A DNA stretch of 33,590 nt from Candidatus Rokuibacteriota bacterium (lineage in GTDB: Bacteria; Methylomirabilota; Methylomirabilia; Rokubacteriales; CSP1-6), in contig QHSP01000107.1 in the NCBI GenBank assembly GCA_003220495.1, positions 1 through 33,590 on the forward strand, read 5' to 3'. The first letter of the stretch is position 1, and each line of letters starts with the position of its first letter. The translations under genes and the position numbers were made by a program. Shown here piece by piece: positions 10,181 through 20,354 of this stretch. The notes beneath the pieces were generated by a model. It had not been told where the DNA came from. It did no database searches and saw nothing but the letters and a program-made list of their open reading frames with translations.

Positions 10181-11611
10181 ATGCGGCGGACAAAGATCGT
10201 CTGCACGATCGGTCCCGCGAGCAGCGACACCGCCGAGCTCGATCGCCTCGTCGCAGCCGGCCTCGACGTGGCGCGGCTCAATTTCTCTCACGGCACCCAC
10301 GACGAGCACGCCGAGGTCATCCGGCGCATCCGCGAGGGTGAGGCGCGCTGGGGCCGGCCGATCGCGATCCTTCAAGATCTGCAGGGCCCGAAGATCCGGC
10401 TCGGGACATTCGGCCCCGGCGGCGGCGGCCGCGTCGACCTCGAGCCCGGTCGGCCCTTCACCCTCTGCGCGCATCCGGTGGTCGGCACCGTCGAGCGGGC
10501 GTCGATCACGCATCCCGAGTATCTGAGCGACCTGCGCGCCGGCGACGAGATCTGGATGGACGACGGCATGATCCAGCTCAGTGTCGAGGCGACGTCGGCG
10601 GACGAGGTGCGCTGTCGCGTGGTGGTCGGCGGGCGGATCAGCGATCACAAGGGGCTCTCGCTGCCGCGCGTCACCTTGCCGGTGTCCTGTCTGACGGACA
10701 AGGATCGCGATGACTTGAGATTCGGGCTGCGCCGCGGGGTCGACTACGTCGCCGTCTCGTTCGTGCGCTCGGCCGGCGACATCGACGAGGTGCGTGCGTG
10801 CCTGCTCGAGGAAGGCGCCGATCTGCCGATCGTCGCCAAGCTCGAGCGCCACGAGATCGTCGACAATCTGCCGGGCATCCTCAGCAAGGTCGACGCGGTC
10901 ATGGTCGCCCGCGGCGACCTCGGCGTGGACGTGCCGCTCGAGGACGTGCCCCACATCCAGAAGGAGATCATCCGCCAGGCCCGCGGCGCGAAGGTGCCGG
11001 TGATCGTCGCCACCCAGATGCTCGAGTCGATGGTCACGCATCTCAGGCCCACCCGCGCCGAGGTCTCCGACGTCTCAACGGCGATCTTCGACGGCGCCGA
11101 CGCGGTCATGCTGTCGGCGGAGACGGCCACGGGGCGCTATCCCCACGAGGCCGTCGCCGTGATGGCGCGGGTCGCCGAGCGCGCCGACGGCGCCGTGCTG
11201 TCCCTCGACCGTGAGCGGCGCCGCCGCCCGGGCGCGAACTTCCAGGAGGCGATCTCGGACGCGGCGGCGTCGGCGGCGCACGTGCTGAGCGCGCGCGCGA
11301 TCGTCGCCTTCACCGAATCGGGCTTCTCCGCCCGGCTCATCTCCCAGGCCCGGCCCAGCGTGCCGATCATCGCGCTGACGCCGTTCGTCGAGGTCCAGCG
11401 CCGGCTGGCCCTCTCGTGGGGCGTCACCTCGAGGCTGATCCGAAAGGTGGAGACGACCGACGAGATGATCGAGGAGGTCGAGGCCAACCTGCTCGGCGAC
11501 GGCGTCGTCCGTCCCAACGATGTGATCGTCATCATCTCCGGCTCGCCGATGTGGGTCCGAGGGACGACGAATCTTCTGAAGCTGCACCGGGTGGGCGAGC
11601 GCCGCACGTGA
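10181..11611 (+). CDS. pyk: Pyruvate kinase
   Basis: A 476-residue pyruvate kinase, converting phosphoenolpyruvate and ADP to pyruvate and ATP in lower glycolysis. Family motifs are complete: [10 protein letters not shown] at the N-terminus, [20 protein letters not shown], the catalytic lysine in [20 protein letters not shown], and the ATQMLESM / PTRAEVSDV segment. Length is normal. It starts 3 bp after the uvrA stop. Its TGA overlaps the GTG start of the sensor kinase (GTGA), so all three genes may share a transcript. The DNA-repair, glycolysis and sensing genes have no obvious pathway link. Confidence 0.97.
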
Positions 11612-14600
11612 AGCCCGGGCTCGGGCGCCGATTGTCCCGTCGTCTCCTCGCGGTGCTGCTCGGTCTCCTGCTGCTCTGGGCCGCCGCGGGCGTCGTGGTG
11701 GCAGGACACGTCGTGGCACGTTACGACACGGCCGTCACCGCCAGCCTCGCATCGGTCCACGAGCTCGTCGCGCTGGCGCTCGAGGACGTGCGTCGCGAGG
11801 CGTGGCTCCTGGCCCACGATCCCGCCGTCGCCGAGGGAATGGCGCGCAGCGACTGGGCCACGCTCGTGCGCGGTGCGCTGCCAAAGGTTCTGGCGCTGCA
11901 GCAGGAGCGCCTTGCGGATCTCCTGCTGATCATGGACGCGCGCGGAGTCCCGCTCATGCAGATGCCGCCCGCGAAGCAGAGCATCGCGCCGGTGGTCGGC
12001 CGGCCAGGCGAGGCCGCCCCGCAGCTGGCCGTCGTCGGCGATCGGCCCTATGTGCTCGGCGTCGCGCCCACGCAGGCCGGCATGGTGGTCGTCGGGCGAA
12101 GCTTCGACGCCCTCGAGGGGGCGATCGCGAACCTGCCGTCCCGGCCCGCGCTCGTGGCCATCGCGGACGACCGCGCCCTCGGCGTCACGCCGCTCGACGC
12201 GCCGACGGCGGGCTGGAACGACGCCGTGCGTACCGGGCAGATCGCGATCGGCGGTGAGACGTGGCTCGCACGGCCCTTCGGCGAGGGCGGCGGGGGCTTC
12301 TGGACCTTGCTGCCGGCGCGGGAGCACCGGGGGCCGGCGAGGCGCCTCTGGCTCTGGTGGGCCCTCTCGCTCGCCGGCGCGCTGGCGGGCGCCGTGGGCA
12401 TTGCGGCGGTCTCCGCATCCGAGCGCGGCGAGGGCGCGTCGGAACGCCGACGGAGAGGCGCGCGATCGCAGGCGAAGCCCGCCCGCGCCACCAAGCCGCC
12501 CGAACCGCCCGACAAGCGGCCGAGCCGCGAGCTCGAGGTGCTGCACGCGGTCGTCGTGGCGACCGGGACCGGCGACGACCTCGTGCTCACCGCCGAGCGG
12601 ACGCTCGAGGTCGTCTGCGACGTCGCGGGCATCCACTTCGGCGGTGTCTTCCGCTTCGATCGCGCCACCCAGACCCTCGGCCTCATCGCTCACCGCGGCC
12701 TCGAGCCCGTCGACGTCGAGCACCTGCAGCTGCGCTCGCTCGACCACAGCCACGTCGGCGAGGTGATCCGTACCGGACACGCGATCATCACCGATCTGAC
12801 GGCCTCGCGCTTGCTGACGCCCGACGTCGCCGAGCGAGTGAGAGCCGGCGGCTATCGGACCCAGCTCGCGCTGCCGATTCCGGTGAACGGCGAGACATGG
12901 GGCGTGATGGCGCTCATCACCAAGGAGCCACGGACCTTCGACGCCGACGAGCTGACCCTGCTCGAGGCCGTCGCGCACCAGGTGGGACAGGTGGTGGCGC
13001 GCGCCTCGCTCCTGGCCGAGAGCCACGAGAAGAGCCGCCGGCTCGAGGCCCTCGGTCGCCTGGCCCAGACGCTCACCGCCACCCTGTCGCCGGACGAGGT
13101 GTTCCGGCGCGTCGTCGACGCGGCGGTCGAGCTCTTCGGCTCGAGCGCCGCCCAGCTCTGGCTCGTGGAGGAGGACGGCCAGCACGTCGCGCTCCATGCC
13201 GCGGCCGGCGTCGACGCGTCGACGGAGGACTTCGAGCGCCACCGCGTTGGCGAAGGGCTCATCGGCACCGTCGTGGCGAGCCGCGAGCCGCTGGCGGTGG
13301 TCGACGTCTTGAACGATCCGCGGGCCCGCAACGTCGAGTCAGCCCGCGCCGCCGGCGTGATCAGCACCGGCATCGTGCCGCTCCTGATCGGCCAGAAGGT
13401 CCTGGGCGCCCTGGCCATCGGGGTGCGCGCGCGCCACCAGCCCACGCCCGAGGAGATGCAGCTCCTCGGCTCGCTGGCCTCGCACGCCGCGAACGCGATC
13501 AACAACGCCCAGCTCTATCGCGAGGCGACCCGGCAGGCTCAGCGGATGAGCGCGCTGGCCGACCTCGGCCGGCTCGTGTCCGAGACGCTCGACCTCGACC
13601 TCGTCGCGCAGCGCGTTTCCGACAGTGTCCGGCACCTGCTCGGCGTACACTCCTCGAGCCTCTACCGCATCGACCCGGAGACCGAAGCGCTCGTGGCCTT
13701 CGCCGTCACCGGCGAGGTCGGGGTCGCAATCGGCCGCGATACCGTGTTCCCGCGGGGCCACGCCGTCGTGGGCGTCGCCGTGCGGGAGCGAGCTCCCGTC
13801 GCGACGCCGAATCTGCTGGCCGATCCCCGCTTCATCTTCACCGAGGAGGCGCGGGCGAGCATCGAGCGCATCGGCAATCGGTCCGTGCTCGCGGTGCCGC
13901 TGCGCGTCGGCGAGCGGGTCATCGGCGCCCTCGGCGTGGGCGACCAGGTCGGGCGGCGGTTCGACGACGACGAGATCCGACTCGCCGAAGCGTTCGCCGA
14001 CCAGGCGGCCCTCGCGCTCGAGAACGCGCGGCTCTACACCGAGGCGACGCGCCGACGGCTCGAAGCCGAGGAGCTGGCGCGCCTGGCGCGGACCTTGACC
14101 GAGAGCCTCGACCCGCGTGACGTCGGCCAGCGAATCGTCGAAAGCGTTCTCGTGCTCTTCCGGGTGCGATCGTCCGTGCTCCGGCTCCTACGCCCCGATG
14201 GCTCGCTGATCACCCTGGCGGGCGGGGGCCGCTTTCGCGACGTCTCGCAGGTCGCTCCCGTGTTGCCCGCGGGAGTCGGGCCGTCCGGGATCGCGATCGT
14301 CGAGGGGCGAGCCGTGTCCTCGGCCGACGTCTTCAGCGATCCCGCGATCGTCCTGAGCGAGCAGGTGGCGGCGGCGATGCGGCAAACCGGCGCCGCCGCG
14401 GTGCTCGCCGTGCCGCTCCGGGCGAAGGGGCGCATCATCGGCACGCTGGCGCTGGGCGACGTCGCGGGCCGGATCTTCTCCGAGGCCGAAGTGGGGCTGC
14501 TCCAGGCCTTCGGCGATCAGGCGGCGCTCGCGCTGGAGAACGCGCAGCTCTACGAGGAGAACCGTCGCCAGGTCGAGGAGCTCTCCGTGCTACTCGAGCT

Positions 14601-16224
14601 GTCGCGGGCGGTCACTGGCCAGCTCGATCGGTCGACCTTGCTCGAAGCGATTCACACTCAGGCCGGCCGCATCCTCGACGCCGCCAACATGGCGATCGTG
14701 CTGCGCGACGAGGAGCGCGGGGACCTCGAAGTCGTGCTCCGCGTCGTCGACGGCGCGACCGACATGCGCACGCCGCTCCGGTACCCATCCCGGACGGTCG
14801 GGCTCATGTCCGCCGTGCTCGAGACGGGCAAGGCGGTCCGGACGGATGACTATTCCGCCGAGTGCGCGCGCCGCGGCGTCGCGCCGGTCGAGACGTTCCC
14901 CGGCGCGCGGCACTGGCTCGGCGTGCCGATGACGACGGGGGAGATGGTGATCGGCGTGCTGACCCTGCGCAGCCTCACCCGCGCCTACGGCGAGGCCGAC
15001 GAGCGTCTCCTGTCGAGCATCGGTCACCTCGCCGCGCTGGCGCTGCGGAGCGCGCGCCTCTTCGAAGAGCGCACCCGGGCCTACAGCGAGCTGGCCTCCG
15101 CGCAGGACCAGCTCGTGCGCACCGAGAAGCTCCGCGCGCTCGGCGAGATGGCCTCGGGCGTGGCGCACGACTTCAACAACCTGCTCGCGTCGATCCTGGG
15201 GCGCGCCCAGCTTACGCTCCAGCGCTTGCAAGACCCGCAGCTCCGCAAGTGGCTCCAGGTCATCGAGCGCTCCGCCCTCGACGGCGCGCAGACCGTTCGA
15301 CGCCTGCAAGAGTTCACGCGGACCCGCCGTGACCAGCCGTTCGTCGCGGTCGATCTCAACGAGGTTGTGCGCGGGGCCCTCGAGATCACCCAGTCGCGCT
15401 GGCGCGAGGAGACGCGAAGCCGAGGCGTCACCGTAGAAGCACACACGTCGTTCGGGAGCTTGCCGACCGTGGCCGGCGATCCGGCCGAGTTGCGAGAGGC
15501 GATGACCAACCTGATCCTGAACGCCGTCGACGCGATGCCGACCGGCGGCACCCTGACCCTGACCACCAAGGTGGAGAACAACCTGGTCGTGGTGACCGTC
15601 GCGGATACCGGCGTCGGGATTCCCGAGGCCATCCGGGGCAAGATCTTCGATCCGTTCTTCACGACGAAGGGGCCGCAGGGTACCGGACTCGGGCTTTCCA
15701 TGACCTACGGGATCCTCTCGCGCCACGGCGCGCGGATCACGGTCGACAGCCACGAGGGGCGCGGCACGACGTTCCGTTTGACGTTCGCGCCCGGCGTGGT
15801 CCCCGACGTGGAAGTGAACCCGCCCGCCGAAGCGCCGCCCCTGGGGGTGTCGCTCCGATGCCTGGTGATCGACGACGAGGCGGAGGTGGGCCGGGTGCTC
15901 GGCGACGTCCTCCAGACCAGCGGCCATCGAGTCACCGTGCTCACCGACGGCGGCGAGGCGATCGCGCAGTTCCGGGCCGAGCCCTTCGACCTCGTCTTCA
16001 CCGACCTCGCGATGCCGCGTGTCTCGGGCTGGCAGGTGGCCCAGGCCGTCAAGGAGCTCGCGCCGTCGGTGCCGGTGGTCCTCGTCACGGGCTTCGGCGT
16101 CGAGCTGACGGCCGAGGAGCGCCAGACGCAGGGCGTGGACATGGTGCTCGTGAAGCCGCTGAAGATCGCCGACGTCCTGGGTGCCGTGGCGCGCGCAGCC
16201 CGCAAGCGCCCCGGGAGACGCTGA
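11608..16224 (+). CDS. Giant hybrid sensor histidine kinase with five GAF domains and C-terminal receiver
   Basis: A 1538-residue membrane sensor kinase. A first membrane segment lies at about 11-31, an external sensor region at about 32-244 and a second membrane segment at about 245-266. Five GAF-type domains follow at roughly 305-468, 485-632, 648-811, 825-983 and 995-1155. Next come a HisKA domain with the phospho-acceptor in GVAHDFNN (His1187), an ATPase domain with NLILNAVDAM, DTGVGIP and GTGLGLSMTYG, and a receiver domain with LVIDDE, acceptor Asp1466 (FTDLAMP) and the lysine in LVKPL. It may bind small molecules or tetrapyrroles through the GAFs, but none has an obvious ligand cysteine signature that I can name. 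The GTG at 11608 overlaps the pyk stop. No separate output regulator is adjacent. Confidence 0.93.
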   Translation: MKPGLGRRLSRRLLAVLLGLLLLWAAAGVVVAGHVVARYDTAVTASLASVHELVALALEDVRREAWLLAHDPAVAEGMARSDWATLVRGALPKVLALQQERLADLLLIMDARGVPLMQMPPAKQSIAPVVGRPGEAAPQLAVVGDRPYVLGVAPTQAGMVVVGRSFDALEGAIANLPSRPALVAIADDRALGVTPLDAPTAGWNDAVRTGQIAIGGETWLARPFGEGGGGFWTLLPAREHRGPARRLWLWWALSLAGALAGAVGIAAVSASERGEGASERRRRGARSQAKPARATKPPEPPDKRPSRELEVLHAVVVATGTGDDLVLTAERTLEVVCDVAGIHFGGVFRFDRATQTLGLIAHRGLEPVDVEHLQLRSLDHSHVGEVIRTGHAIITDLTASRLLTPDVAERVRAGGYRTQLALPIPVNGETWGVMALITKEPRTFDADELTLLEAVAHQVGQVVARASLLAESHEKSRRLEALGRLAQTLTATLSPDEVFRRVVDAAVELFGSSAAQLWLVEEDGQHVALHAAAGVDASTEDFERHRVGEGLIGTVVASREPLAVVDVLNDPRARNVESARAAGVISTGIVPLLIGQKVLGALAIGVRARHQPTPEEMQLLGSLASHAANAINNAQLYREATRQAQRMSALADLGRLVSETLDLDLVAQRVSDSVRHLLGVHSSSLYRIDPETEALVAFAVTGEVGVAIGRDTVFPRGHAVVGVAVRERAPVATPNLLADPRFIFTEEARASIERIGNRSVLAVPLRVGERVIGALGVGDQVGRRFDDDEIRLAEAFADQAALALENARLYTEATRRRLEAEELARLARTLTESLDPRDVGQRIVESVLVLFRVRSSVLRLLRPDGSLITLAGGGRFRDVSQVAPVLPAGVGPSGIAIVEGRAVSSADVFSDPAIVLSEQVAAAMRQTGAAAVLAVPLRAKGRIIGTLALGDVAGRIFSEAEVGLLQAFGDQAALALENAQLYEENRRQVEELSVLLELSRAVTGQLDRSTLLEAIHTQAGRILDAANMAIVLRDEERGDLEVVLRVVDGATDMRTPLRYPSRTVGLMSAVLETGKAVRTDDYSAECARRGVAPVETFPGARHWLGVPMTTGEMVIGVLTLRSLTRAYGEADERLLSSIGHLAALALRSARLFEERTRAYSELASAQDQLVRTEKLRALGEMASGVAHDFNNLLASILGRAQLTLQRLQDPQLRKWLQVIERSALDGAQTVRRLQEFTRTRRDQPFVAVDLNEVVRGALEITQSRWREETRSRGVTVEAHTSFGSLPTVAGDPAELREAMTNLILNAVDAMPTGGTLTLTTKVENNLVVVTVADTGVGIPEAIRGKIFDPFFTTKGPQGTGLGLSMTYGILSRHGARITVDSHEGRGTTFRLTFAPGVVPDVEVNPPAEAPPLGVSLRCLVIDDEAEVGRVLGDVLQTSGHRVTVLTDGGEAIAQFRAEPFDLVFTDLAMPRVSGWQVAQAVKELAPSVPVVLVTGFGVELTAEERQTQGVDMVLVKPLKIADVLGAVARAARKRPGRR

Positions 16225-16260: not shown

Positions 16261-17049
16261 ATGGATTTCAAGTTCCTGACCCTGGCGCGCCAGGATGGGG
16301 TCGCAACGATCACCCTCAACCGGCCCGACGCGTTCAACGCGCTGAGCCTCGGCCTCGGCCGCGATCTCTTCCACGCGGCGCTCGAGGTCGACGAGGACCC
16401 GGCGGTCCGCTGCGTGGTCGTCACCGGCGCGGGCCGGGCGTTCTGCGCCGGCGGGGACGTCAAGGACTTCGTCGACAATCTCGAGCGCATCGGCGTCCTG
16501 GTGAAAGAGCTCACGACCTATCTGCACGGGGCCGTGTCCCGGTTCTGCCGCAGCGACAAGCCGGTCATCATGGCGGTCAATGGGGTCGCGGCCGGCGGCG
16601 GGCTGAGCTTCGCGCTCTCGGGCGACCTGGTCGTCGCCGCCGAGTCCGCGCGGTTCACGATGGCGTACTCGAAGATCGCCGCCACGCCCGACGGCTCCTC
16701 GTCGTACTTCCTGCCGCGCCTCGTCGGTCTGCGTCGCGCGATGGAGCTCTACTTCACCAACCGCGTGCTCTCGGCGCGCGAGGCGCTCGAGTGGGGCCTG
16801 GTGACGCGCGTGGTGCCCGACGCCGAGCTCGCGACGACGGTCGCGGCGACGGCCCGCGAGCTGGCTCAGGGGCCGACGAAGGCGTTCGGCGGCGCCAAGC
16901 GGCTCTTCCACCAGTCGACGTGGGAGAGCCTGGAGACGCAGATGGAGCTCGAGGCGCAGGCGATCGCCGCGAGCGGCCACACCGAGGACTTCCGGAGCGG
17001 GGTGACGGCGTTCGCCCGCAAGCAGACGCCGACCTTCAGCGGCCGGTGA
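16261..17049 (+). CDS. Enoyl-CoA hydratase/isomerase family protein (PaaG-like)
   Basis: A 262-residue crotonase-fold enzyme acting on an acyl-CoA thioester. The oxyanion-hole motifs are visible as GRAFCAGGDVKDF and NGVAAGGGLSFAL. In the active-site loop the sequence reads AATPDGSSSYFLPRLVG. The classic hydratase glutamate is replaced, and the PDGSS...FLPRLVG form is typical of PaaG-like ring 1,2-epoxyphenylacetyl-CoA isomerases and related isomerases. Thus isomerisation is more likely than simple hydration. The ATG is preceded by GGAGG. It does not overlap its neighbours, and no other phenylacetate gene is present, so the substrate is unknown. Confidence 0.9.
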   Translation: MDFKFLTLARQDGVATITLNRPDAFNALSLGLGRDLFHAALEVDEDPAVRCVVVTGAGRAFCAGGDVKDFVDNLERIGVLVKELTTYLHGAVSRFCRSDKPVIMAVNGVAAGGGLSFALSGDLVVAAESARFTMAYSKIAATPDGSSSYFLPRLVGLRRAMELYFTNRVLSAREALEWGLVTRVVPDAELATTVAATARELAQGPTKAFGGAKRLFHQSTWESLETQMELEAQAIAASGHTEDFRSGVTAFARKQTPTFSGR

Positions 17050-17067
17050 CGTCGGTGCATCCTCGGG

Positions 17068-17073
17068 TACAAT
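17068..17073 (+). promoter_or_regulatory. Probable -10 box (TACAAT) of the glutaredoxin-DinB gene
   Basis: TACAAT lies 28 bp before the ATG at 17102, with an AGGAG ribosome site at 17091-17095 between them. Unlike several neighbours, this gene would have a leader of about 20 nt. Confidence 0.45.
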
Positions 17074-17101
17074 CGCTCACGGACTCTTTCAGGAGACTCA
17101 C

Positions 17102-17881
17102 ATGACCAATAAGGAAGCGGCTCGGGTTTCCGGAACGACCGTCAAGCTCTTCTACCGCCCGGGCTGATCGTCCTGCGCCAAGACGAAGGAGCTTCTCTCG
17201 TCTTGGGGGGTCGAGTTCGACCCGGTCGACGTCCAGGCCAACCCGGAAGGCTACGACGAGCTCAAGCGCCTGGGCATCGCGCGCGTCCCGGCGGTGACCG
17301 TCGGTGACCGCGCGGCGCACGGCTGGAACCCGCCGGCGTACGCCGAGCTGCTCGGCGTGCCCTACGCGGCGGCGGTGAAGCTCGCCCCGAGCGAGCTCGC
17401 CAAGCGGCTCGACATCGTCCTCGACACGACGCAGCAGCTGATGCGCGTCGTCCCCGAGCGGCACCTGAACTGGCGACCGCCCGAGCGCAACCGGACGCTG
17501 CGCAACCTCGGCTACCACGTGTTCCGACTCTCGCTGGCGTTCGTGGACGGCATGGATCTCGGCGAGTTCCCGGAGTCGTGGCTGCTCGACCAGGCGCCGG
17601 ACGATCTGGGCGACGGTCCGGCCATCGCGCGCTACGGCGCCCTCGTCCGCGGTCGCGTCGGTGGCTGGTTCGAAGGCGCCTCGCCCAGCGAGTTCGCGCG
17701 CGTGATCAAGGTGTACTACGGCCCGCAGTCGGGCCACGATCTGCTCGAGCGCACGGCGTGGCACGCCGCGCAGCACCTTCGGCAGCTCTACGCGCTCGCC
17801 GAGCGACTCGAGATCGCGCCCCCGGTGCCGATGCCGGTCGACGCGTTCGAGAGACTGCCGCTTCCCGACGCCCTCTGGTGA
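17102..17881 (+). CDS. Selenoprotein: glutaredoxin-like domain (Sec22, USSC) fused to a DinB-like domain
   Basis: Read through the in-frame UGA at 17165-17167, this is 259 residues. Residues 11-90 form a glutaredoxin-like fold: VKLFYRPG-U-SSCAKTKELL (U22, C25), then the cis-proline loop RVPAVTVG. Residues about 100-259 form a four-helix DinB/DUF664-like domain with a possible metal triad, His139 in NLGYHVFR and His221/His225 in WHAAQH. DinB-fold proteins include bacillithiol and mycothiol-dependent transferases, which would suit a thiol/selenol partner domain; that link is inference. The ATG has AGGAG upstream. A 9-bp hairpin follows the UGA. The stop overlaps the methyltransferase GTG. Conventional calling would give only a start inside the DinB part (about 17294) and lose the redox site. 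Confidence 0.87.
17178..17206 (+). promoter_or_regulatory. Predicted bacterial SECIS hairpin of the glutaredoxin-DinB gene
   Basis: CCAAGACGA (17178-17186) pairs perfectly with TCGTCTTGG (17198-17206), starting 10 nt after the UGA. The 11-nt interior can extend the stem, giving an apical loop about 22-24 nt after the UGA. In one fold the loop is AGCU, with G in its second position. The exact apical fold is ambiguous by eye. Confidence 0.7.
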
Positions 17882-18648
17882 CGCGAGTCGACTACGAGCG
17901 GCGCCTCTATCAGACGTATCGCGCCGGCCGGAGCCTCTCCGCCGACACCGGCCGGCTCTGGATGGACGCGATCGCCGGCCACGCCGGTCGCGACCGTCCG
18001 GACCTGACGATTCTGGATCTGGGCGCCGGCACCGGGCGGTTTTCGGTGCTGCTCGCCGATGCGTTCGGCGCTCGCGTCGTGGCGGTCGAGCCCTCGGCGA
18101 AGATGCGCGCCGATGCCGAGCGCGGCAGCGCGCATCCTCGGATCGTCTACCGGGACGGAACGGCCGGGGCGATCCCGGCCGCCGACGGCGAGTTCGACTT
18201 CGCGCTCCTGTCGATGATCATCCACCACGTTCCGGATCTCGACGCCTGCGCGCGCGAGCTCCACCGGGTCGTCAAGGCCGACGGGCTCGTCTTCATCCGC
18301 AACACGTTCAGCGGCCGACTCGACGGCATCCGCCACTACGAGTTCTTCCCGTCGACCCGCGCCATCGACGAGGCGCGGCTTCCCCGGGTGGAGCGGGTCC
18401 GCGAAGCGTTCGAGGCGAGGGGATTCGTGGTGCAGGCGCTCGACACGCTCGAGCAGGAAATCGATCCGAGCCTCGCCGCCCACTACGATCGCATCAAGCG
18501 CCGGGCGCTCTCGTCCTTCGAGCTGATCACCGACTCCGAGTTCGAGCAGGGCCTCCAGCGCATGGGAATCGCGGCAGGCCGCGAAGCCACCCCGACTCCA
18601 GTCCTGGAAAAAGTCGACCTCCTCGTCCTCCGCCGCCCCAGCAACTAG
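17878..18648 (+). CDS. Class I SAM-dependent methyltransferase
   Basis: A 256-residue methyltransferase of the UbiE/Methyltransf_11 type, moving a methyl group from S-adenosylmethionine to an unknown acceptor. Motif I is ILDLGAGTGRFSVLLA, followed by the acidic ribose-binding residue in VVAVEPS, motif II around FDFALLSMIIHHVPD, and a post-motif lysine-rich helix. The GTG at 17878 overlaps the stop of the glutaredoxin-DinB selenoprotein (GTGA), so the two are translated together. This suggests a shared task, possibly modification of a small thiol or an electrophile, but nothing in the sequence names the substrate. Confidence 0.9.
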   Translation: MTRVDYERRLYQTYRAGRSLSADTGRLWMDAIAGHAGRDRPDLTILDLGAGTGRFSVLLADAFGARVVAVEPSAKMRADAERGSAHPRIVYRDGTAGAIPAADGEFDFALLSMIIHHVPDLDACARELHRVVKADGLVFIRNTFSGRLDGIRHYEFFPSTRAIDEARLPRVERVREAFEARGFVVQALDTLEQEIDPSLAAHYDRIKRRALSSFELITDSEFEQGLQRMGIAAGREATPTPVLEKVDLLVLRRPSN

Positions 18649-18733: not shown

Positions 18734-19678
18734 CTAGTCTTCTTCAGCCCAAGCCGCAGTAAGCCGACGAGCGAGCTCGTGATGTCCTTTGAAGAAGTAA
18801 GCGAGCATGACGACCGTAGCCAGGAGATTGCCGACGAAAACAGTCCAGCCGGCGATCTCGTCGAGCACCCACTTCGCCGCGATCAGCACGCCACCCGTGA
18901 AGAACACCTCGAACGCGGTGAAGAAGATCACGAGCGCGAACACGAAGAGCGGCTGGCGCTCGGCGCCCGCGATCAAGAGGGCACCGACGATGCCGAAGAG
19001 CGCGAAGGCGATCCCGTGCACGATCGTGTAGGACACGAGCGCGGTCACCGGATCGGACTGGCGGAGGAGCCCGGTGCCGAGGAGCTTCGGGGTGCGCAGC
19101 GGGTCACCCTGGATCCAGTCGATCGCGAGGAACCAGAGCGCCACCACGGCGGCGCCGAGCAAGCCGGCCACGATGCCCTCGCGGAGGACGAGGCCCCAGG
19201 AGCCGATCAAGCTGCGCGGCAGGGCCCGGTGAGCGCGGAAGAAGTACCAGAGCATCGCGATCGACGCGAGCAGATTGCCGATGAGGATCGCCCACCAGAC
19301 GAGGGCGCCCAGCAACGACTTGCCGAGCGCGCCGACCACGCCGAAGACGAAGACCTCGAAGCTGGCGAACAGGATGATGAACGCGAGGAAGAGCGCGGGC
19401 TCACGCTCGCTGACCGCCATCAGGCTCGCCGCCACGATGCCGAACGCGACGAACGCCAGCCCGTGGATGATCGTGTAGCCGAGCACGTTGCCGAACGTGG
19501 GCGAAACGCCGGCCGGGTCCGTGACGCCCTGGAAGACCGCGGCGCCCAGGAGTCCCGGAGTCAAGAACGGCTTGCCCCGCGCGATGTCGAAGGCGAGGAA
19601 CCAGACGGCGACGACGACGGCTCCGATCAAGCCGGCCACGACACCTTCTCTCAGGATCGAACGCTCGGCGGACGCCAT
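18734..19678 (-). CDS. Membrane protein made of two tandem homologous halves
   Basis: A 314-residue integral membrane protein of unknown function. It is an internal duplication. The first half (about 10-155) begins REGVVAGLIGAVVVAVWFLA and the second (about 166-310) begins REGIVAGLLGAAVVALWFLA. Both halves continue with GYTIIHGLAFVAFGIV or SYTIVHGIAFALFGIV, then FEVF, then a GNLLA segment followed by YFF. Each half has about four membrane segments. Conserved histidines in the IIHG/IVHG motif and the FEVF glutamate are candidates for a functional site. A TACAAT box at 19697-19692 lies 13 bp before the ATG, so the leader is very short. It converges with the methyltransferase; the 85 bp between them (18649-18733) hold nothing I can identify. 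Confidence 0.85.
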   Translation of the reverse strand: MASAERSILREGVVAGLIGAVVVAVWFLAFDIARGKPFLTPGLLGAAVFQGVTDPAGVSPTFGNVLGYTIIHGLAFVAFGIVAASLMAVSEREPALFLAFIILFASFEVFVFGVVGALGKSLLGALVWWAILIGNLLASIAMLWYFFRAHRALPRSLIGSWGLVLREGIVAGLLGAAVVALWFLAIDWIQGDPLRTPKLLGTGLLRQSDPVTALVSYTIVHGIAFALFGIVGALLIAGAERQPLFVFALVIFFTAFEVFFTGGVLIAAKWVLDEIAGWTVFVGNLLATVVMLAYFFKGHHELARRLTAAWAEED

Positions 19679-19709
19679 CTCGGTGCGGATTATTGTATGC
19701 CTTCCACCG

Positions 19710-20354
19710 TCACTGGGCGTCCCGCGCGAATCGCACGCCGTAGTCGGAGTAGCGCAGGTGGGGCGGCAGGGAGGAGCGGTGACCGACCGTGCTCCACGGG
19801 TCGGCGTGCCGCCAGGCTCCGCCACGGCTGACGCGGCGGGTTCCTGAGGCCGCCCCGCGCGGATTCCGCCCGGGCGACTCCGCGTAGTAGCCCTCGTCGA
19901 ACCAGTCGGCACACCACTCGTGACAGACACCGGAGAGGTCGGCGAGCCCGAGGGGGTTCTGCGGCGTCTCGCCGACTCGCGGTGGCCGATCGAACGTGGC
20001 GGCGGGTCTGGCCTCGCCCCACGGGTAGCGGGCACTCGCGAGACCGCCCCGCGCGGCTTTCTCCCACTCGGCTTCCGTCGGCAGGCGCGCTCCGGACCAC
20101 TCCGCGAACGCGACGGCCTCGGCCCACGCGAGACCGACGACGGGCTGGCGCGGGTCGGCGAAGGCCGGATCGAGCCAGAACGGGGGTGGCGGAGCACCGG
20201 TCGCGTTCGCGTACGCGGCGAAGTCCGCATTCGTCGCGGGCGTGCGCGCGATCAGGAACGCGTCGACCCAGACGAGGTGGAGCGGACGCTCGCAGGGATG
20301 GCCGTCGGCCCAGCCCATGCTGAACGACCCGGCCGGAACACGCACGAAGTCCAC
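19710..20354 (-). CDS. Formylglycine-generating-enzyme (SUMF1/EgtB C-terminal) domain protein
   Basis: A 214-residue FGE-sulfatase-fold protein. Family features are the start (VPAGSFSMG), the segment RLPTEAEWEKAARGG, GLADLSGVCHEWCADWF, SRGGAW, and the end YGVRFARD. In sulfatase-activating FGEs the family motif usually reads GNVWEW; here it is GVCHEW, so true FGE activity is doubtful. Many members of this fold have other or unknown roles. No sulfatase is in the window. It is short for FGE and lacks a signal peptide. The GTG at 20354 lies 5 bp after a TATTAT box, so the mRNA is probably leaderless and shares its promoter region with the divergent aminotransferase. Confidence 0.85.
   Translation of the reverse strand: MDFVRVPAGSFSMGWADGHPCERPLHLVWVDAFLIARTPATNADFAAYANATGAPPPPFWLDPAFADPRQPVVGLAWAEAVAFAEWSGARLPTEAEWEKAARGGLASARYPWGEARPAATFDRPPRVGETPQNPLGLADLSGVCHEWCADWFDEGYYAESPGRNPRGAASGTRRVSRGGAWRHADPWSTVGHRSSLPPHLRYSDYGVRFARDAQ

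Follow-up and report, generated by a model that had tools for sequence, protein, structure and literature searches.

A predicted selenoprotein joining a glutaredoxin to a DinB-like domain in Rokubacteria

The glutaredoxin selenoproteins with a UxxC motif (PF00462), including Clostridium Grx1 and the UXX-star proteins, have the same thioredoxin-like fold as the N-terminal domain of the protein described here, and they also have selenocysteine (Sec) at the first position of the motif. The Clostridium structure (cGrx1, 7c10) aligns with this redox domain with a Z of 12.1 and 29% identity. They differ in being listed as redoxins without a DinB partner, and the UXX-star models stay under their cut-offs on the new protein (NF041212, 31.4 vs 66; NF041211, 24.2 vs 100; NF047338, 24 vs 97). 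The HUGP/GUXX-star fusion selenoprotein (NF045501) is also a Sec-containing protein in which a redoxin-like domain is joined to another, but the partner domain is a different one, and the present protein scores 22.6 against a cut-off of 325.

The C-terminal domain belongs with the DinB/YfiT (STL) superfamily, including BstA-H and mycothiol S-transferase, with which it shares a four-helix fold and a three-His metal pattern; in BstA, that pattern is H67/H160/H164 (PMC5815605). The bacillithiol transferases and mycothiol S-transferase are single-domain proteins that use a free thiol, whereas the present protein has an N-terminal redoxin with Sec. Mycothiol-dependent maleylpyruvate isomerase (2nsf/2nsg) has a DinB-type metal domain that aligns with residues 91-259 (Z 12.4-13.5), but it lacks a redoxin domain and takes its mycothiol in free form, and at 13-14% sequence identity the likeness is one of fold only. 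EgtB and its kin likewise combine DinB_2 with a second domain in one protein. In EgtB that domain is FGE-sulfatase-like, whereas here it is a redoxin, and Glutaredoxin and DinB_2 are the only domains found. An FGE-like gene does occur near related loci, but it is separate and convergent, and is not fused as in EgtB.

An earlier sequence-only reading of this locus knew of no named system with the glutaredoxin-DinB architecture. This agrees with an inventory from May 2026 covering 119 families or subfamilies of prokaryotic selenoproteins, in which UxxC glutaredoxins and several fusions appear but DinB proteins do not (PMC13188914), and with the NCBIfam models (June 2026), none of which reaches its cut-off on the selenoprotein. 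No relevant description of a glutaredoxin-DinB selenoprotein, or of selenoproteins in Rokubacteria, was found in the literature, although prior mention in recent papers is possible. The architecture is genuine and apparently undescribed among the UxxC redoxin selenoproteins. It adds a broadly conserved selenoprotein family whose partner domain is missing from the 119-family inventory, and ties selenium to the DinB/STL superfamily, most of whose functions are unknown.

The window, meaning the whole stretch of 33,590 nucleotides that was analysed, comes from a soil bacterium of the Rokubacteria. The gene, its signals and its immediate neighbours are as follows.

16261..17049, + strand: enoyl-CoA hydratase/isomerase, the conserved upstream neighbour (Pfam ECH_1, E 1.3e-56; synteny)
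17046..17073, + strand: promoter-like site GTGACG-16-TACAAT, between the enoyl-CoA hydratase gene and the selenoprotein gene (consensus match only)
17091..17095, + strand: ribosome-binding-site-like AGGAG, 6 nt ahead of the ATG (sequence)
17102..17881, + strand: predicted glutaredoxin-DinB selenoprotein gene, 259 aa with a single internal TGA (ORF reading, Pfam, homologue comparison)
17165..17167, + strand: TGA read as selenocysteine, Sec22 of U-S-S-C (homologue alignment, SECIS and synonymous-site tests)
17174..17176, + strand: Cys25, second residue of UxxC, invariant in 47 homologues
17178..17206, + strand: bacterial SECIS stem-loop, 17178-17189 with 17195-17206 (11/12 pairs in the window), loop AGCTT at 17190-17194
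17878..18648, + strand: SAM methyltransferase overlapping the stop codon (Methyltransf_11, E 1.6e-20), conserved mainly in the window's genus

The gene starts with the ATG at 17102 and ends with an ordinary TGA stop at 17879-17881, giving a product of 259 residues. The internal TGA corresponds to residue 22, in the context FYRPG-U-SSC. The sequence-only reading had assigned it to the first Cys of a glutaredoxin CxxC, and this is borne out: the same codon is TGA in 48 of the 57 genomes of the window's family. The ribosome site and promoter that it had noted upstream are matched by the AGGAG and by a promoter-like site, the latter found once, against 0.0 expected in shuffles. Standard annotation would truncate the gene at the internal TGA, and the redox domain would be lost.

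The gene almost certainly encodes a selenoprotein in which the UGA is read through via a SECIS element directly 3' of it. This assignment draws on the shared TGA codon, the pairing of Sec with Cys in proteobacterial homologues, the SECIS tests (vide infra) and the Sec machinery. The sequence-only reading had proposed a search for the domain order with U or C at position 22, and had named two observations that would count against it: DinB genes that normally start downstream with no redox domain, and a genome devoid of Sec machinery. The search covered 84,980 genomes and yielded 60 loci, and the homologues normally carry the redox domain. TGA is present at codon 22 in all 23 Rokubacterial or Methylomirabilota loci and in two alphaproteobacterial loci; the remaining full-length homologues, mostly from Proteobacteria, have Cys. 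The proteobacterial homologues are about 35% identical, with Cys aligned at the TGA column. A search of 95 genomes from the phylum, which shares some genomes with the scan so that the locus counts overlap, detected the fusion in the 48 family genomes mentioned above (a few copies are cut by contig ends), in one genome from a different family of the same order, and in one more distant genome at 29% identity. Every full-length copy in the family has TGA at codon 22, and none has Cys. As for the machinery, selA, selB and tRNA-Sec are sited together on one contig (C152) of the same genome. selA was over its cut-off in all five Sec-form genomes tested and in 6/15 Cys-form genomes, so the Cys form persists in Sec-capable genomes too.

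In a midpoint-rooted maximum-likelihood tree, which does not orient the change between Sec and Cys, well supported branches separate the alphaproteobacterial Sec pair (L044/L045), nested within Cys forms, from the Sec forms of the Rokubacteria. There has therefore been more than one switch between Sec and Cys. With both versions of one enzyme available in nature, and a second Sec clade among the Cys forms, one can ask what selenium buys; Burkholderia that carry a Cys version in a catabolic cluster can be cultured, which makes the function testable.

It is highly improbable that the TGA is a true stop, whether through pseudogenization, sequencing error or restart at a downstream GTG, and that the protein is DinB alone. 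A 195-aa ORF does begin at GTG 17294, and DinB-only paralogues are known in one genus. Against this, the TGA is identical across the 48 family genomes, residues 23-64 are under purifying selection like the remainder (pN/pS 0.28-0.37), the Cys twins are open through the TGA codon, and the SECIS is conserved. A pseudogene or sequencing error in particular is ruled out by the family-wide TGA, the open Cys twins and the purifying selection past the TGA. Recoding of TGA throughout the genome is also ruled out, because the selenoprotein gene, the upstream hydratase and a gene downstream in a related locus (L022) all terminate at TGA.

The perfect 9-bp stem that had been claimed to start 10 nt after the TGA is present exactly so, with CCAAGACGA at 17178-17186 pairing with TCGTCTTGG at 17198-17206. 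As a single sequence, the window stem folds unexceptionally (z -1.18), and the significance of the SECIS therefore comes from comparative tests. The 34 distinct Sec-form sequences share a 12-pair stem whose loop of five bases, AG(C/U)U(C/G/U), lies 22 nt past the UGA. Pairing in this stem reaches 89%, compared to 32% for the same positions in 35 Cys-form sequences; when one side of the stem is slid as a control, pairing in the Sec forms falls to 40-54%. In a 17-sequence alignment, 5/12 stem pairs show two-sided (compensatory) changes, and all 500 shuffles give a lower covariation score, a result that sequence relatedness can inflate; the slid controls agree on the percentage paired. Given this effect of kinship, and a covariation score for the +1 slide that is close to that of the true register (0.182 vs 0.199), the pairing and the Sec/Cys contrast weigh more. 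Within the genus, synonymous differences are depressed about five-fold over codons 23-36 (0.075 per site vs 0.36-0.40 elsewhere), and nonsynonymous differences are low on either side of the TGA. The stem also tracks the protein sequence, with Lys29 accompanied by Ser33, or Arg29 by Ala33, in 27 of the 34 Sec sequences. An Rfam scan of 17000-17400 matched no family, which does not count against a SECIS; the element just 3' of the UGA is conserved as a structure.

The domains and the putative metal ligands are located as follows.

17141..17311, + strand: glutaredoxin domain, residues 14-70 (Pfam PF00462, E 1.6e-12)
17408..17788, + strand: DinB_2 four-helix metal domain, residues 103-229 (Pfam PF12867, E 7.8e-10; structure matches)
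17516..17518, + strand: His139, putative metal ligand, invariant
17762..17764, + strand: His221, putative metal ligand, invariant
17774..17776, + strand: His225, putative metal ligand (HxxxH), invariant

Both halves of the fusion that had been read from the sequence score over their Pfam cut-offs (47.9 vs 22.9 bits for PF00462; 39.7 vs 24.8 bits for PF12867), and Glutaredoxin is detected in 47/47 homologues and DinB_2 in 46/47. The glutaredoxin half has the C/UxxC motif and an invariant VP-loop proline (P63). In the DinB half, the four-helix fold is accompanied by the triad proposed earlier, H139, H221 and H225, which is invariant in the 47 aligned homologues and may well bind the metal. Other positions invariant among these homologues include G21, U/C22, S24, C25, W189, E216, R217, W220, Q224, R227 and Q228.

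The AlphaFold model (mean pLDDT 92.7, pTM 0.88) has two good domains. The C-terminal domain aligns with the DinB protein 6iz2 (Z 16.1, rmsd 2.2 over 143 residues), mycothiol S-transferase 8f5v (Z 13.7, rmsd 2.7 over 134) and maleylpyruvate isomerase 2nsg (Z 13.5, rmsd 2.9 over 155); a Z near 13 is undiscriminating for helical bundles, and the Pfam match and His pattern concur with DinB. The N-terminal domain aligns with the redoxin 3zit (Z 14.1, rmsd 1.7 over 77) and with NrdH (1h75, Z 12.2), at much the same Z as with cGrx1. NrdH is also its nearest solved sequence, but the curated NrdH model TIGR02194 misses its cut-off on this domain (40.8 vs 85.75 bits), and dependence on thioredoxin reductase is therefore only suggested. 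A GST-like overall architecture proposed by Foldseek (TM about 0.3, rmsd >9 A) was not accepted as kinship.

DinB-only paralogues with an intact His triad occur beside the fusion in four genomes of one genus (G056, G058-G060), and in a fifth genome (G057) only a DinB-only copy was seen. The DinB domain may accordingly work without the redox domain. These paralogues (L110-L114), which have no redox domain, are about 61% identical to the window's DinB domain, and the G057 copy (L114) contains an in-frame TAA near its start. A degenerate DinB-only gene without the three metal-ligand histidines follows an enoyl-CoA hydratase gene in a further genome (L115, G069:C214).

Gene neighbourhoods were compared across the 52 Rokubacterial loci with enough flank, in which genomes are partly counted twice. 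A hydratase lies upstream on the same strand in 50/52 of these loci, and within 450 bp in 41/52. The methyltransferase, whose co-occurrence the sequence-only reading had suggested checking, turns out not to be a general partner: its overlap with the stop codon is seen in 15/52 loci, almost all from the window's genus, which weakens the case for it as a functional partner, and it is the hydratase that is conserved instead. The Cys homologues are found in varied catabolic clusters, adjoining genes for transporters, isochorismatase, amidase, RraA-like, BKACE and SDR proteins, as well as TPP enzyme, flavin oxidoreductase and acyl-CoA dehydrogenase genes. Such widely varying neighbours indicate no single pathway.

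The sequence-only reading had taken the fusion to suggest a self-contained thiol/selenol transferase or reductase, a function that stays hypothetical. The reading favoured here is that the redoxin acts as, or regenerates, the thiol in chemistry on a small catabolic substrate, which would make the protein a two-domain enzyme for thiol-dependent chemistry in a catabolic pathway. The DinB metal site would activate a thiol or selenol, or the substrate. Sec22 would then attack either a thiol adduct or the substrate itself, producing an intermediate (selenide or selenosulfide) that Cys25 would resolve as a Sec22-Cys25 selenenylsulfide, and the pair would be re-reduced, probably by thioredoxin reductase rather than glutathione. 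Thiol chemistry is supported by the invariance of the UxxC residues and all three histidines in the 47 homologues, and the DinB/YfiT proteins of B. subtilis, which have the same three-His pattern, are metal-dependent thiol transferases (PMC5815605). The catabolic clusters around the Cys homologues, the hydratase ahead of the Rokubacterial copies, the closeness of the redox domain to NrdH and the lack of over-cut-off thiol markers (below) are also counted in favour of the reading. As a whole, the explanation that combines a selenoprotein with two-domain thiol/selenol catalysis is judged slightly better than an even bet. Small-molecule thiol chemistry in which both domains cooperate has roughly an even chance of being correct, and the exact cycle, from Sec22 attack through Cys25 resolution to re-reduction, is offered tentatively, as open to considerable doubt.

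In maleylpyruvate isomerase, mycothiol or glutathione adds to, and then leaves, the substrate. The selenol or thiol of the redoxin might similarly be a tethered cofactor that stands in for the free low-molecular-weight thiol of other DinB enzymes, bonding covalently at the metal site to an electrophile or activated double bond and departing again as in the isomerase, but this seems unlikely. The idea draws on the match of residues 91-259 to that mycothiol-dependent enzyme (Z 13.5), although fold likeness does not establish the same reaction, and on one Cys homologue that adjoins isochorismatase-family, AtzG-like and amidase genes and has a gene of the aspartate/glutamate racemase family close by. 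The missing thiol markers favour it as well. A profile search of the genome (a 98% complete MAG) gave no match over cut-off for GshA of either family, GshB, BshC, MshC or EgtD, the markers of glutathione, bacillithiol, mycothiol and ergothioneine synthesis, although the EgtD search also gave zero positives over cut-off among 14 control genomes. An mshC match fell below cut-off and is probably a cysteinyl-tRNA synthetase, as the same search matches all of the control genomes. The lineage seems to be without known low-molecular-weight thiols, and other thiols or unfamiliar enzymes are possible. Against a tethered nucleophile, Cys25 is as invariant as position 22, which would be needless for a pure nucleophile and favours a redox cycle, and the Cys forms are found in Burkholderia, which are expected to make glutathione. 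A DinB-fold metal enzyme with its own catalytic selenol on a fused redoxin, borrowing no free thiol in a lineage seemingly without the known ones, has a small chance of being the right description. Much the same low probability is given to the Sec/Cys pair being an ordinary glutaredoxin-type reductant, with the DinB domain merely docking partner proteins or storing metal. UxxC redoxins are a known selenoprotein class (PMC13188914), and the same genome encodes a small UGPC redoxin next to a thioredoxin-reductase-like gene, but in the DinB domain the three histidines and the motif ERTxWHxxQHxRQ show little or no variation, as would be expected of a catalytic metal site.

That small redoxin (L002, G000:C130:142071-142289) has an in-frame TGA of its own, in the context VYSNVG-U-GPC, and is located just 3' of the thioredoxin-reductase-like gene. 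Elsewhere in the window, a 498-aa ORF on the minus strand (18734-20230) consists of a conserved membrane protein joined to what looks like an out-of-frame reading of the adjacent FGE-like gene; in the related locus L022, these are two separate genes. A further selenoprotein at L022, suspected in its convergent FGE gene, turned out to be a pair of adjacent genes, the TGA being an ordinary stop. Finally, the very long ORF at 11416-16224 codes for a histidine kinase with multiple GAF domains and a response-regulator domain; many Rokubacterial loci keep this kinase upstream of the hydratase.
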